Positions 12,233 through 53,963 of a DNA stretch of 64,000 bases are shown piece by piece. Below the pieces are notes generated by a model that saw nothing but the letters and a program-made list of their open reading frames with translations, did no database searches and was not told the origin of the DNA. This DNA is from an uncultured Coriobacteriaceae bacterium (lineage in GTDB: Bacteria; Actinomycetota; Coriobacteriia; Coriobacteriales; Coriobacteriaceae): the NCBI GenBank assembly GCA_944322305.1, contig CALUOP010000007.1, positions 1 to 64,000 of the forward strand, written 5' to 3'. The translations under genes were made by a program, and so were the position numbers. The stretch's first letter is position 1; each line of letters begins with the position of its first letter.

Positions 12233-12432
12233 GGGAGCTCCAATCACCGAGGTTGTGAGGTTGCTTTTGTGCTGCTGCCCCTACTATATCCGCGGAGACA
12301 AGCGAAAACGCAGCGTTAAGGCTATCGCAAGCAAAGCTTAAGCGGGCTGCCCGGCGATCGGTAGAGGCAGGTCGACAGCCGGTTTGGGGCACGGCGGCGC
12401 GGCTGTGCGAAGGGTCGGGGTGGTTGCCCGCA
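12233..12432. other. Upstream region of the lipoprotein gene
   Basis: Non-coding. An ACTATATCC stretch near 12281-12289 could belong to the lipoprotein promoter. The following ~120 bases have no recognisable feature before the repeat array begins. Confidence 0.35.
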
Positions 12433-12990
12433 CTGGTGGCATGTAAGCGTTCGGCTGGGCGGCTGGCCTGCGCGCGGAGGGTCAGTTGGTCGCCTTGTCG
12501 ACATGCAAGGTCGCGGTTGGTCGCTGTTCCGACATCGGCCGAGCGGTTAGGAGCTGCGGCGGCATCTAATTCCCGATATTCTGGGGGATAGATGCGCTTT
12601 GCGCGACCAACCGCTTCTTAGACGTCGGATCAGCGTTCAACCGAGGCCTTAGATGACGGAGTGGCGGACAGAAATCGCTTAGATGTCGTTCTCGCGGGCA
12701 AGCGGGAAGGGCGCGCCAGCCTTGCGTGACGCATCCGCGACCAACCGAAATCTTATCGGACAGAATCGCGAGCGGAAATCTCTTAGCGGTCGTTTCCGCG
12801 ACCAAATGGGAGGGCTGCTGAAGGCTTGCAGGTCGTATCTGCGGGTAACCGAAACACTGGCGGCCGGAATCGCGGGTGGATGTTGCGTGGGAGTCATTCT
12901 CGCGATCAACCGGGGAGGGGCCAGCGGCCTTGGACGACAAGATCGCAGGAAGCTGAGCCGAGGGGCTTTGAGGTCGTGGAGAGCGTCGAC
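12433..12990. repeat. Mirrored degenerate ~30-bp tandem repeat array A
   Basis: The gap between the lipoprotein and ABC operon genes is filled by diverged units of mostly exactly 30 bp. Right-arm units start at 12601, 12631, 12661, 12691, 12735, 12765, 12839 and 12869 and begin like CGCGACCAACCG, with TTAGATGTCGG about 18 bases in. Left-arm units (12433-12584, e.g. starts at 12495, 12525, 12555) are the reverse complement: CCGACATC followed by CGGTTGGTCGC. The two arms meet near 12590. No reading frame, transposase or fixed spacer is seen. The same consensus recurs at 46.9 and 53.5 kb. Confidence 0.75.
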
Positions 12991-37373: not shown

Positions 37374-37500
37374 GAAAATGGATGTGGTTTAAGCGTGTCC
37401 CGCTGAGTAGAGCGCCTTTCCGCACAAAGAAAGCCGCAGGTAGAAGGCCTGCGGCTTTTCTGTCTACTTCGAAGGTGGCGGCTAAACCACATCCATTTCC
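37374..37500. repeat. Nested inverted-repeat element, 127 bp
   Basis: The ends GAAAATGGATGTGGTTTA (37374-37391) and TAAACCACATCCATTTCC (37483-37500) are inverted copies with one mismatch. The inner hairpin AAAGCCGCAGG (37430-37440) with CCTGCGGCTTT (37448-37458) ends in TTC and looks like a terminator. The same end sequence recurs at 53839-53963. It lies between convergent genes. Confidence 0.8.
37430..37460. terminator. Terminator between deacetylase and lemA
   Basis: An 11-bp perfect stem with a 7-base loop (37430-37440/37448-37458), A-rich before and T-rich after, so it may work on both strands. Confidence 0.75.
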
Positions 37501-40780: not shown

Positions 40781-42556
40781 ATGGCATACGAGGACCTGCA
40801 CGAGGAGTGCGGCGTTTTTGGCGTGTTCGCCCCGGACCGCGACGTGGCGCGCTTGGCCTACTTCGGCCTGCACGCGCTGCAGCACCGCGGCCAGGAGTCT
40901 GCCGGCATCGCCGTGGGCGACGGCGGCACGGTGCTCGTGCGCAAGGACATGGGCCTGGTGACGCAGGTGTTCACCGACGCCGACCTGGCGGCGCTGCCCG
41001 GCCAGCTTGCCGTGGGCCACGTGCGCTACGGCACAGCGGGCGCCAAGAGCTGGGAGGCGGCGCAACCGCACCTCTCCACCATCAACGACGTGATTATCGC
41101 CTTGGCGCACAACGGCACGCTGGTGAATACCGACGAGCTGCGCCGGCAGCTCATCGACCTGGGGGTGAACTTCCTCTCCAACTCCGACTCCGAGGTGGCG
41201 GCCAAGCTCATCGGCTACTTCACGCAGCAGTCGCACCACCTGCGCGAGGGCATCCGCAAAACCATGGAGCTTGTGCGCGGCGGCTACGCCATGGCGCTTA
41301 TCAACGAGCAGGCGCTTTACGCCTTCCGCGACCCGTTTGGCATCCGCCCGCTGGTGCTGGGCTATCTGCCCGCCGACGAGCAGGGCGCGGACGGGGCCGT
41401 TTTTGCCCACGACGCCGAGGGCGAGGGCGTCCCCGCGCGCGTGGCCGGCTGGGTGGTGGCGAGCGAGACCTGCGCGCTCGACATCGTGGGCGCCGTGTAC
41501 GTGCGCGACATCCGCCCCGGCGAGATCCTGCGCATATCCGCGGCCGGCCTGGTGAGCGAGCAGGGCGTGCCCGCCGCGCGCGAGAGCGCCGAGTGCATCT
41601 TCGAGCAGGTGTACTTTGCACGCCCCGATTCTATGATGGGGGGCAAGTCGGTGTACGCTTGCCGCTACGACATGGGACGGCGCCTGGCGCACGAGGCGCC
41701 GGTGGACGCCGACATGGTGATCGGTGTGCCCGACTCCGGCATGCCGCCGGCCGAGGGCTTTGCGCACGAGTCCGGCATCCCCTTTGGCGAGGGGCTCATC
41801 AAGAACCGTTACGTGGCGCGCACGTTCATCCAGCCCACGCAGGAGCTGCGCGCCATGGGCGTGCGCATGAAGCTCAACCCCTTGCACGACAACATCGCGG
41901 GCAAGCGGCTGGTGGTTATCGACGACTCCATCGTGCGCGGCACCACCATGGTGCAGCTGGTGCGGATGCTGCGCCAGGCGGGGGCCGCCGAGGTGCACGT
42001 GCGCATCAACAGCCCCGAGGTGGTGTGGCCGTGCTTCTACGGCATCGACACCGACGTACAGAGCCAGCTCATCAGCGCCAACAAGAGCGTGGAGGAGATT
42101 TGCGCCTACATCGGGGCGGATTCGCTGGCGTTTCTCTCGGTTGACGGGCTGCTGGCCTGCGTGCCGTCGTGCGGAGGTTGCGCCGGGAGCGCGGACGGCG
42201 CTGCGGCGGCCGGCGCGGGGACGGATGACGTTGCAACCGGGGCGGTAGGCGTAGCTGATGCCGAGGCCGGGGCTGCGGGCGCGGTTGACGCCGGCGCGGC
42301 CGGGGCGGCAGGCGCGGCTGATGCCGAGACGACTGTCGAGCGTCTGGCGCCGGTTGCCACGGGCTGCCCGGCGCGCGGGTATTGCACGGCATGCTTTACC
42401 GGTGTGTATCCGGTGGCCATTCCCGAGAGCTTTGGGCGCGACAAGTTCATGCCCGGTTACGACCCGTGCAACCTCACGGAGAACCCGCCGCTCGCGCGCG
42501 ACGTGGTGGTAGAGAAGGGGCACGACCACAGCTGGGAAGCCCGCCACGCGCAGTAA
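40781..42556 (+). CDS. purF: Amidophosphoribosyltransferase PurF with a Gly/Ala insert
   Basis: 591 aa, some 100 longer than usual. A short propeptide precedes C10 (EECGVFGVF), the N-terminal nucleophile of the glutaminase domain. HALQHRGQESAG and GTLVNTDEL follow. The phosphoribosyltransferase part has the PRPP motif VVIDDSIVRGTT. Cysteines for a Bacillus-type [4Fe-4S] cluster are visible (VVWPCFYG, GYCTACFTG). Between LLACVPSC and GYCTAC lies a ~65-residue Gly/Ala/Asp-rich insert not found in typical PurF, and a ~35-residue tail ends the protein. It catalyses the first committed step of purine synthesis. The start follows AAGGAGCTTGACTG. Confidence 0.93.
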   Translation: MAYEDLHEECGVFGVFAPDRDVARLAYFGLHALQHRGQESAGIAVGDGGTVLVRKDMGLVTQVFTDADLAALPGQLAVGHVRYGTAGAKSWEAAQPHLSTINDVIIALAHNGTLVNTDELRRQLIDLGVNFLSNSDSEVAAKLIGYFTQQSHHLREGIRKTMELVRGGYAMALINEQALYAFRDPFGIRPLVLGYLPADEQGADGAVFAHDAEGEGVPARVAGWVVASETCALDIVGAVYVRDIRPGEILRISAAGLVSEQGVPAARESAECIFEQVYFARPDSMMGGKSVYACRYDMGRRLAHEAPVDADMVIGVPDSGMPPAEGFAHESGIPFGEGLIKNRYVARTFIQPTQELRAMGVRMKLNPLHDNIAGKRLVVIDDSIVRGTTMVQLVRMLRQAGAAEVHVRINSPEVVWPCFYGIDTDVQSQLISANKSVEEICAYIGADSLAFLSVDGLLACVPSCGGCAGSADGAAAAGAGTDDVATGAVGVADAEAGAAGAVDAGAAGAAGAADAETTVERLAPVATGCPARGYCTACFTGVYPVAIPESFGRDKFMPGYDPCNLTENPPLARDVVVEKGHDHSWEARHAQ

Positions 42557-42664
42557 GGAGCGCGTGTGTCGCGCGGCTCGCGTCGCGCGGCTCGCGTCGC
42601 GCGGCTTGTTCTCATGGTGCTTTTTGGCCGCCCTTGCCCTGTATCCCACGGGGCCGGGCGGCTT
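42557..42664. other. Start of the purF-purM gap
   Basis: GC-rich; a direct repeat of CGCGCGGCTCGCGT-like sequence (about 42571-42605) occurs, but no gene or clear terminator. Confidence 0.35.
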
Positions 42665-43268
42665 GCTTGTGCGCGCGAAAAGCACGTTCGCACGAGCCGC
42701 TTGGGCGAAAACCATACTCATACGAATCACTTGCGCGAAGAGCGCGCTCATACGAGCCGCTTGGGCGAGAATTGCACTCGTACGGTCGCGATCTTGCCGG
42801 CTCAGGTTAGTGCTGCTTGAAATATACCGCTATGCGTTCTTCTCGCCGTTGCAATGAGCGGTAATGCGTTCAGTATTGCGCGCCGGGTGAAACGCCCCTT
42901 CGTATGAGTGTTCTTTTCGCCCAGGCGATTCGTATGAGTGTGTTTTTCGCCCGCACGCGTCGTATGGGTGCAGTTTTCGGGCGCAGCGTTCGTATGAGCA
43001 GGCTTTTCGCGCACGGAGGTTCGTACAAGCACGTCTTTCTCCCACAGGAGGTTCGTGCAAGCACGCTTTTCGCGCACGGGGGGTTCGTGCAAGCAGGTCT
43101 TTCGCCCACGCGCAGTTCGAGCAGCAGCACTTCTCGCCTGCGGCGCTCGTTCGGATTCACTTCTCGCCCGCGCCACTCGCATGGATGCACTTCTTGCCCG
43201 CGGCGCTTGCACGAGCGCGCATTTTACCCGCAACGGTTGCGCGGCTCCGGGTTTGCTCGCGTTGCAAT
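42665..43268. repeat. Mirrored degenerate 30-bp tandem repeat array D
   Basis: Left arm: four consecutive 30-bp units (42665-42694, 42695-42724, 42725-42754, 42755-42784) of the form GGGCGAAAA followed by CTCATACG. Right arm: about 11 units in the opposite orientation starting at 42901, 42931, 42961, 42991, 43022, 43054, 43086, 43118, 43148, 43178 and 43209, of the form CGTATGAG then TTTTCGCCC. Units are 30 bp, with four of 31-32 bp. The centre (42785-42900) has a 7-bp hairpin TACCGCT/AGCGGTA. Unit length changes shift the frame, so this is not coding. Confidence 0.85.
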
Positions 43269-43456: not shown

Positions 43457-44572
43457 ATGAGCGATACACCTAAACACGTGACATACGAGGACGCTGGCGT
43501 AGACACCGCCGAAGGCGGGCGCGCGGTTGACGCCATCAAGCAGATGGTTGCCGAGACCAACCGCCCCGAGGTTGTCGGCGGCATCGGCGGTTTCGGCGGG
43601 CTCTTCTCGGCTGCCGCGCTCAAAGACATGGAGGATCCCATCCTCATCAGCGGCACTGACGGCGTGGGCACCAAGCTCGTGCTGGCGCAGCTGCTCGACC
43701 GCCACGAGACGGTGGGCCAAGACCTGGTGGCCATGTGCGTCAACGACATCCTGGCCAGCGGTGCCGAGCCGCTGTTCTTCCTGGATTACGTGGCGATCGG
43801 CCACATCGAGGCCGCGCACATGGCCAAGATCGTGAAGGGCGTGGCCGACGGCTGCAAGCTCGCGGGCTGCGCGCTTGTGGGCGGCGAGATGGCCGAGCAC
43901 CCCGGCGTCATGCGTCCGGATGACTACGACCTGGCCGGCTTCACCGTGGGTGTGGTTGACCGCCCCAAGATGCTCGACCCGGCCAGCGTGCGTCCCGGCG
44001 ACGTGATCGTCGGCCTGCCTTCCACGGGCATCCACTCCAACGGGTACTCGCTGGTGCGCAAGGTTATCGGTGTTGACGGCATCGTGCCCGGTACACCCGA
44101 GGCGGCCGAGAAGCGCGCCGAGTTGGAGCAGCCGCTCGAAGCGTTGGGCGGCGCCAGCCTGGCCGACGCGCTGCTGGTCCCCACGCGCATCTACGTGAAG
44201 CCCGTCCTGGAGCTGCTGCGCGGCGCGGGCGCCGGCAAGGTGCACGCCATCGCGCACATCACGGGCGGCGGCATCACCGAGAACCTCAACCGCGCGCTGG
44301 CCTCCGACGTTGACGCCGTGGTTGACCGCGCTTCCGACGGCAGCTTTGCGTGGGACGTGCCGCCGGTCATCACCTATATATGCGAGCAGGCCGGCCTTAG
44401 CCCTGACGAGGCGTGCAAGACCTTCAACATGGGTGTGGGCCTCATGTTCATCTGCGCGCCTGAGGACGCCGACGCGGTAACCGCCGCGCTTGAGGCGCTG
44501 GGCGAGAAGCCCTTCCGCGTGGGCACCTGCGTTGCGGGCAGCGGCAAGGTGGTGTACGCCGATGAGCGCTAG
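43457..44572 (+). CDS. purM: Phosphoribosylformylglycinamidine cyclo-ligase PurM
   Basis: 371 aa. Family segments are YEDAGVDTAEGGRAVDAIK, GIGGFGGLF, ISGTDGVGTKLVLA, MCVNDILASGAEPLFFLDY, LVGGEMAEHPGVM, STGIHSNGYSLVRKV and GGGITENLNR. It forms AIR from FGAM using ATP. Slightly longer than the E. coli enzyme. It overlaps the purN start by 11 bases, so the two are coupled. Confidence 0.95.
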   Translation: MSDTPKHVTYEDAGVDTAEGGRAVDAIKQMVAETNRPEVVGGIGGFGGLFSAAALKDMEDPILISGTDGVGTKLVLAQLLDRHETVGQDLVAMCVNDILASGAEPLFFLDYVAIGHIEAAHMAKIVKGVADGCKLAGCALVGGEMAEHPGVMRPDDYDLAGFTVGVVDRPKMLDPASVRPGDVIVGLPSTGIHSNGYSLVRKVIGVDGIVPGTPEAAEKRAELEQPLEALGGASLADALLVPTRIYVKPVLELLRGAGAGKVHAIAHITGGGITENLNRALASDVDAVVDRASDGSFAWDVPPVITYICEQAGLSPDEACKTFNMGVGLMFICAPEDADAVTAALEALGEKPFRVGTCVAGSGKVVYADER

Positions 44573-45634: not shown

Positions 45635-46078
45635 GCTTTTCTCGGCAGGTGCAAGGCGGGGAGCCCGTTGCAAGCCCTCGCTGCGCATTTCACTCAACAG
45701 GTACGGGGTGAAACGTCCTCATGCACCCTCGCCGCGCATGCTTCTCGATAGGCGCTAGGGCGGGGCGCCCCCCCCGCTGGCTCCCGTTGCACATTCTTCT
45801 CAACAGGCACAAGCGACGGTCCTCCTGCGGATGGGCTTCGCACATTTCACTCGACAGATGCAAGGAACATGACGGTTTCGCGGCGTTTTCTGCGAACTCT
45901 TCTCGACAGGTGCAAACCTCGAGACACCAGGAGTGCCCTTTCGCCACGTTCTTCTCGACAGATGCAACTGTTTGCGCCCTGGCAGCCTCATGCAGCGTGC
46001 ATCTGTCGAGAAGAAGGTGCAGGATCGCCCCGATACACCGTGATGCTTCCGTACCTGTCGAGATGAATTTGCACCGCG
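45635..46078. repeat. Mirrored degenerate ~52-bp tandem repeat array E
   Basis: Seven diverged copies of a core like TTCTCGACAGGTGCAAG start near 45638, 45689, 45741, 45794, 45845, 45897 and 45950, at steps of 51-53 bp. Sequence just before the core is also partly conserved (GCGCA or GCACA). Two inverted copies follow, TGCATCTGTCGAGAAGAA near 46000 and TACCTGTCGAGATGAA near 46052. The variable parts are not fixed-length spacers and the cores diverge gradually, unlike a CRISPR array. No reading frame is supported. Confidence 0.82.
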
Positions 46079-46869: not shown

Positions 46870-47262
46870 CGCAGTTACGCGGTCGCGGTTGCCCGCGGAA
46901 ACGACGCGCAAGCCCTGGTTGTCCGCTTCGGCGACATGAAGGCCCTCGGTTGAACGCTCCGACGTCATCTAATATCGCGTTAACCGCGGAGACGTCATCC
47001 AAATCCGGGAATTTTGCCTTTTATGGGTCGCGCTCGCGACTAACTAAATCGGCGGCGACAGAAGCGCGACCAACCGCGCCCGCCAGCGCCGGAGCCGTGG
47101 CCAACTGCTTTGTCAACGTCGAACCCGCGACCAGCCGCGCCTGCCAAAGGCGACCAGTCGTGCTCGTCAACGTCGAAGCGGCCGGCCATATCGTCGGCAG
47201 CGGAATCGTGGCCAAACAGCATCGCAGCCGGAGTTTTGACCAGTTGGCATCGCTCAGACGCG
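46870..47262. repeat. Mirrored degenerate ~30-bp tandem repeat array B
   Basis: Same consensus family as array A. The left arm is inverted: units near 46926-46955, 46956-46985 and 46986-47015 read like TCCGACGTCATCTAA followed by CGCGTTAACCG. The right arm is direct: units start near 47034, 47064, 47094, 47124, 47148, 47178, 47205 and 47233 and read CGCGACCAACCG, then GTCAACGTCGAA. Units are 24-30 bp. Confidence 0.72.
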
Positions 47263-53838: not shown

Positions 53839-53963
53839 AAAATGGATGTTGTTTTGAGCCGCCCCGCAAAGTAGGCCGAGTTTTGGCAACTCTTCTACCT
53901 GCGCTTTTGTGCTGGCGATCCTGCTGTATACTCAGGAATCCCTTCCAAAACCACATCCATTTT
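53839..53963. repeat. Nested inverted-repeat element, 125 bp
   Basis: AAAATGGATGTTGTTTTG (53839-53856) and CAAAACCACATCCATTTT (53946-53963) are inverted copies with one mismatch, and match the ends of the 37374 element. An inner hairpin pairs AGTAG..GAGTT with AACTC..CTAC around 53870-53902. Confidence 0.8.

Follow-up and report, generated by a model that had tools for sequence, protein, structure and literature searches.

Inverted, dispersed intergenic repeats that belong with one gene flanked by its own repeats are known from the REPIN/RAYT systems, in which the gene co-evolves with the word of the repeats. RAYTs themselves are tyrosine transposases of the HUH/Y1 type, and their substrates are single-stranded hairpins. 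The arrays described here, termed D arrays, resemble these systems in that repeat copies lie on both sides of a cognate gene and further copies are dispersed through the genome. Unlike REPIN/RAYT, the D family has no Y1/HUH transposase and a DUF559/EDxHD-like protein instead; its unit is bipartite and repeated directly within an arm, and the sites appear to be double-stranded and phased, with a core that shows no hairpin (fold z = +1.1). By analogy, the family is best read as a REPIN/RAYT-like partnership that may have been assembled from unrelated parts. With BIME/REP clusters the arrays share the intergenic location and the inverted short units, whereas the sequence of the D unit is a different one and the unit is not a palindromic hairpin. 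We know of no 10.5-bp quantised spacing in BIME/REP clusters.

On the protein side, DUF559, REase_MTES_1575 and Vsr-like proteins are comparable through C-terminal matches to PF04480 and PF18741, most of which are weak, and the titles and abstracts found describe no cognate repeat arrays for such proteins. Pfam lists DUF559 as a family of unknown function. For the homing endonuclease I-Bth0305I, a review describes dimerisation on a target just under 60 bp long (PMC3943268), which is about the length of two 30-bp D units. This enzyme is intron-encoded (phage-type) and has one target, whereas the D-family genes are free-standing and chromosomal and have many arrayed target-like sites in the genome that carries them. 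The spread of homing endonucleases into empty alleles would be compatible with the block replacement between rpsI and nagB reported below. No earlier description of the arrays together with the gene was found in the open-access literature.

The window, that is, the whole stretch of 64,000 nucleotides that was analysed, belongs to a genome of 15 contigs and 2.35 Mb (G000). It was compared with a sister species (G003) and two further species (G001 and G002). The PurM protein of G000 is 84-87% identical to Collinsella proteins and the host is therefore regarded as a member of the Coriobacteriaceae near Collinsella. Genes were called with a codon-usage-based caller. The array lies between purF (40781..42556, plus strand; Pfam GATase_6/7 and Pribosyltran) and purM (43457..44572, plus strand; Pfam AIRS/AIRS_C, with orthologues in G001 and G003), which is followed by purN. 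A position weight matrix scan confirmed four left-arm and eleven right-arm units at 30-32 bp, which are reverse complements of each other, and the original prediction was also right that they read outward from a centre inside the gap, in the order minus-strand units, core and plus-strand units. The left arm (42673..42785, minus strand) has units at 42673, 42703, 42733 and 42763 in exact 30-bp steps. It is followed back to back by a degenerate plus-strand unit (42778..42800), which has the word TCGTACG(A) in common with the innermost left unit and whose counterpart is intact in the purF-purM array of G003. The right arm (42900..43236, plus strand) proceeds in 30-32-bp steps with units starting at 42900, 42930, 42960, 42990, 43021, 43053, 43085, 43117, 43147, 43177 and 43207; the best matches are found beside the core and the units decay outward. 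When up to 3 mismatches were allowed, the pattern TCGTATGAG-N5-TTTTCGCCC matched seven times in the window, each time within this array (0.01 expected). The core between the arms (42786..42899, 114 bp) had been taken for a hairpin centre, a view that did not hold, as its DNA does not form a hairpin beyond chance (z = +1.1).

A search for promoters and terminators found none inside the array, and the terminator-like stem after purF (42582-42605) was no better than shuffled sequences. This stem is formed by a tandem 14-bp repeat (GTCGCGCGGCTCGC) located directly 3' of purF (42568-42606). No match to a known structured RNA in Rfam was obtained in the window, and the reading of the array as tRNA was rejected along with the Rfam reading. 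A CRISPR array was ruled out by the diverged bipartite units, the linkers of 5-7 bp and the opposite arms.

The array is one copy of a dispersed family and is not specific to purine genes. When the purF-purM gap was used as a blastn query against G000, 76 matches were obtained at 18 places; including an array at C4:195 kb that was found by the exact pattern, the genome holds at least 19 two-armed D arrays. About as many are present in G003, one of them inside its own purF-purM gap. The exact unit, YTCGTAYSARYGnnnTTYTCGCCCR, occurs 71 times in G000 and 47 times in G003 and was absent from 394 other Coriobacteriia genomes; a reversed control pattern gave 0 matches. All D arrays follow the same plan of minus-strand units, core and plus-strand units. 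The innermost unit is often TCGTACGA, a palindrome, so that a second unit begins back to back 15 bp on. Steps between units are mostly 30 bp (202 cases), followed by 60 (18), 31 (12) and 61 bp (5). In 35 of the 42 arms, units near the core fit the consensus, which was derived from all units, better than the outer ones (Wilcoxon 4e-7). At least five array positions are common to G000 and G003. The arrays lie in long intergenic gaps between co-directional, convergent or divergent genes with unrelated neighbours such as rplL, ftsY, hypC and upp, and a consistent neighbour gene or orientation was not found among them. The D array is absent from the purF-purM gap of G001, whose PurM is 90% identical. 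The comparison of this gap in related genomes, which had been proposed earlier, thus gave a divided answer: the gap is unrelated in G001 and in named Collinsella genomes, and holds a D-family array in G003. A different inverted repeat set, TCTCTCnnAT / ATnnGAGAGA, precedes purM in G003, G001 and two Collinsella genomes and is not evident in the gap of the window.

The distances between the two arms are not arbitrary. From the inner plus-unit to the first outer plus-unit, 70, 112-114, 121-125, 133-136, 143-144 or 166-167 bp were measured. For 22 non-redundant arrays, the best period among those scanned (5-25 bp) was 10.5-10.6 bp with R = 0.80, a value that 0 of 4000 jittered sets reached; 18 strictly collapsed arrays gave R = 0.79 (0 of 4000 nulls). 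The core distances of the corresponding words T (n = 5) and C (n = 9), which are introduced below, give weak support for phasing when taken alone (null fractions 0.06 and 0.02, respectively; best period for C 9.45). In other word families (L and K in G000, TTTGGTGTG in G003), units follow each other at 21, 30/31, 41/42, 52, 62, 83 and 104 bp, and the best periods are 10.45-10.5 bp. The DNA helical repeat is 10.5 bp, and the quantisation of the arm-to-arm distances at this value argues that the D array is a double-stranded DNA-protein array with its units on one face of the helix. The helical phasing makes the geometry of such an assembly testable.

The same gene sits between two D arrays in G000 (C7, about 90.8-91.9 kb, outside the window) and in G003 (C3; protein P0001), the two proteins being 72% identical over 325 amino acids. 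A family profile detected 7, 6, 4 and 6 members in G000, G001, G002 and G003, respectively, and the nuclease-like family is present in 64 of 65 Coriobacteriaceae genomes. Matches to Pfam, mostly weak, concern the C-terminal region (PF18741, MTES_1575, in 12 of 22 members; PF04480, DUF559, in 9 of 22), and the cognate proteins of the arrays score under the Pfam cut-offs. The best PDB match of the family profile, 3r3p (E = 0.0013), covers 56 positions of the nuclease domain with weak sequence similarity; this entry bears the title 'Mobile intron protein' and we take it to be the EDxHD homing endonuclease I-Bth0305I. In the family alignment E209, D259 and H276 are invariant and E270 and R288 nearly so, which makes them candidate catalytic residues. 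Structure prediction from two family sequences yielded a pLDDT of 32. None of the 22 members had a transposase match in Pfam, and no viral relatives of the protein were found. Judged by these matches, a distant relationship between the family protein and the EDxHD/DUF559 nucleases is probable.

The association between gene and flanking words extends beyond the D arrays. Words that recur on both flanks were scored for the 23 family genes of the four genomes and for 308 control genes; 8 of the 23 lie above the 99th percentile of the controls (binomial 4e-11; 6 of 15 and 5e-9 after collapsing orthologues). In a stricter test, which asked for the same inverted word pair with the same spacing on both flanks, 4 of the 23 members were positive (p = 2e-5) as opposed to 0 of 309 controls; in other genera, 3 of 26 were positive (p = 4e-4). 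Members with their own word on both flanks include those with word K at G000:C4:183 kb and TCTCCCAA at G001:C85; AAAACAACAGG pairs flank the member at G000:C5:134 kb and AATGGATGT inverted pairs the member at G000:C3:193 kb. In more than half of the 23 family genes a recognisable flanking array is absent. DUF559-like genes in other Coriobacteriaceae genera were seen with inverted word pairs on both sides at identical spacings of 149, 58 and 115 bp.

Word and gene were found to change together between G001 and G002. Both genomes are close, with the neighbours of the rpsI-nagB locus 96-100% identical where complete, whereas the family genes located between rpsI and nagB are only 51% identical. 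This locus differs from the gene locus of G000 and G003. In G001, the gene (on C2) is bordered on either side by word T (TTAGGATCGAcGnnnTTYTCGCCA) in 30-bp steps; in G002 (C60), word C (CCCGTATCGAgnnnnTTTTTGCGCA) takes this place, likewise on both sides and in 30-bp steps. Dispersed copies of T (16 exact) were detected in G001 only, and near-matches to C number 68 in G002 and 26 in G001. At two further syntenic sites, a T array in G001 stands against a C array in G002 between flanks that are 91-95% identical; at four others, C is present in both genomes. The block swapped in one T/C pair measures approximately 0.5 kb and retains no residual similarity. An array 3' of a gene for a peptidoglycan-binding-domain protein is found in all four species, with TCGTATGA (D) in G000 and G003, TAGGATCG (T) in G001 and CCGTATCG (C) in G002. 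The four cognate proteins are mutual best matches among the members compared. Taken together with the presence of T, C and D at the same sites, this indicates that positions are partly stable and that the word changes along with the gene version; the occurrence of a different word with a different gene version in relatives suggests a protein-DNA partnership. These natural word swaps (D, T and C) would provide matched protein-target pairs for reading the recognition code. C arrays in G001, the resident gene of which is T-type, showed no extra decay in comparison with their counterparts in G002 (p = 0.91), and relaxed selection on arrays lacking a matching resident gene was accordingly discarded. 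The undecayed C arrays of G001 may reflect a recent swap, binding by another protein or independence from the gene.

With dispersal, phasing, the presence of the word on both flanks of its gene and the coupled change of gene and word established at the level of sequence, we consider it likely that the purF-purM block is a solo phased double-stranded target array, which would be read by a fast-evolving DUF559/EDxHD-fold protein encoded between two copies. Each bipartite unit of 23-25 bp would be bound by one protein or one dimer, which would read a variable block and a more constant one (TTYTCGCC in D and T). The units might be occupied on one face and both arms joined in a single nucleoprotein complex with the core looped. 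More speculatively, nicking or cleavage inside the arrays could drive copying and block replacement by recombination, similar to homing endonucleases and RAYT/REPIN, and gene and arrays would then evolve together as a repeat family that is largely selfish. The copy between purF and purM would be one tolerated insertion, and any effect on purM would be secondary. For the wider picture we lean towards an undescribed intragenomic partnership: fast-evolving, free-standing DUF559/EDxHD-like genes would exist in several copies per genome across the Coriobacteriaceae, at least some of them owning lineage-specific phased two-armed word arrays, both at their flanks and at tens of other sites; gene and word would be block-replaced at conserved positions. 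If true, proteins of the DUF559 type would gain a partner relevant to their function, REPIN/RAYT-type repeat-gene partnerships would have a second, unrelated solution, and part of the repeat-rich intergenic DNA in these bacteria would be explained.

A host-serving role is a possible, though less probable, alternative. The arrays would then be maintained because they serve a domesticated, non-cleaving DNA-binding protein as operators or loop anchors, and would contribute to chromosome organisation or gene insulation. Phasing and exact spacing do imply selection for assembly, several sites are kept between species and the arrays avoid genes. However, the sites are only partly common to the species, words and gene are block-swapped between close relatives, neighbouring genes and their orientations are inconsistent, and the catalytic-looking acidic, His and Arg residues show little or no variation.

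The inverted arms of repeated sites and the gene between two arrays are also reminiscent of transposons, with the arms as multi-site transposase ends and the solo arrays as MITE-like deletion derivatives. The core of the purF-purM array belongs to subfamily A, which recurs at eight G003 loci that are alike over the core and the first units. Nevertheless, these eight copies have no fixed outer end, and neither a sharp element end nor a common outer boundary was found among them; arm length is not fixed, outer units decay, and the gene matches no known transposase. The pattern of subfamily A is better explained by recombinational copying than by a cut-and-paste mechanism, and we regard transposon remnants as quite unlikely.

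The original prediction had suggested that the array may affect purM-purN expression, since transcripts from purF into purM pass through it. As an RNA element of the purine operon, the transcribed arms would fold into a long hairpin by which this expression is tuned. RNA of the array in the window indeed folds better than shuffled controls (z = -7.4), as had been asked; the strong predicted fold, however, follows from the inverted orientation of the arms. Where units would pair, their linkers are no more alike than others (0.374 vs 0.351), so the arms lack linker complementarity, and RNA pairing between them is not under selection. Moreover, the core forms no hairpin, the spacing tracks the 10.5-bp repeat of DNA, and most of the at least 19 arrays are located outside the purine operon beside unrelated genes, also between divergent ones. 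An RNA element as the main function is thus unsupported and very improbable, and any effect of the array on purM is likely to be incidental. An origin as neutral tandem repeats through slippage can practically be dismissed: some adjacent units are near-identical and adjacent linkers are slightly more alike (0.42 vs 0.37), but linkers have diverged while two blocks stayed fixed, and helical quantisation and the match of word and gene contradict this origin.

Besides the D arrays, the window and the related genomes contain other phased words. No family gene was found beside arrays of L, TTTGGTGTG or TGCATGCA. Family L (CTTAGATGTCG-n5-GCGACCAACCG) forms arrays at 12420-12955 and 46885-47140 of the window, with divergent arms 42 bp apart and steps of 30/31, 41-43, 52, 61-63 and 104 bp; it is dispersed in G000 (C3, C4, C8 and others) and was undetected in G001-G003. 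A family K array (TTYTTCTCGRCAGRTGCAA) is located after purN (45635-46069), with convergent arms and 52-bp steps. In addition to the DUF559-like gene at C4:183 kb, K arrays flank a candidate AAA-ATPase-like gene, named from its sequence, at G000:C3:264.6-265.7 kb. An inverted-repeat element with a fixed length of about 120 bp, AATGGATGT...ACATCCATT with CAGGTAGA inside, is present at 37377-37497 and 53841-53961 of the window; seven copies are found in C3 of G000 plus the window, two of which flank the DUF559-like gene at 193 kb. On C3 of G003, family TTTGGTGTG is phased in 21-bp steps with convergent arms, and the palindrome TGCATGCA is phased in steps of 29/30, 54 and 83 bp.
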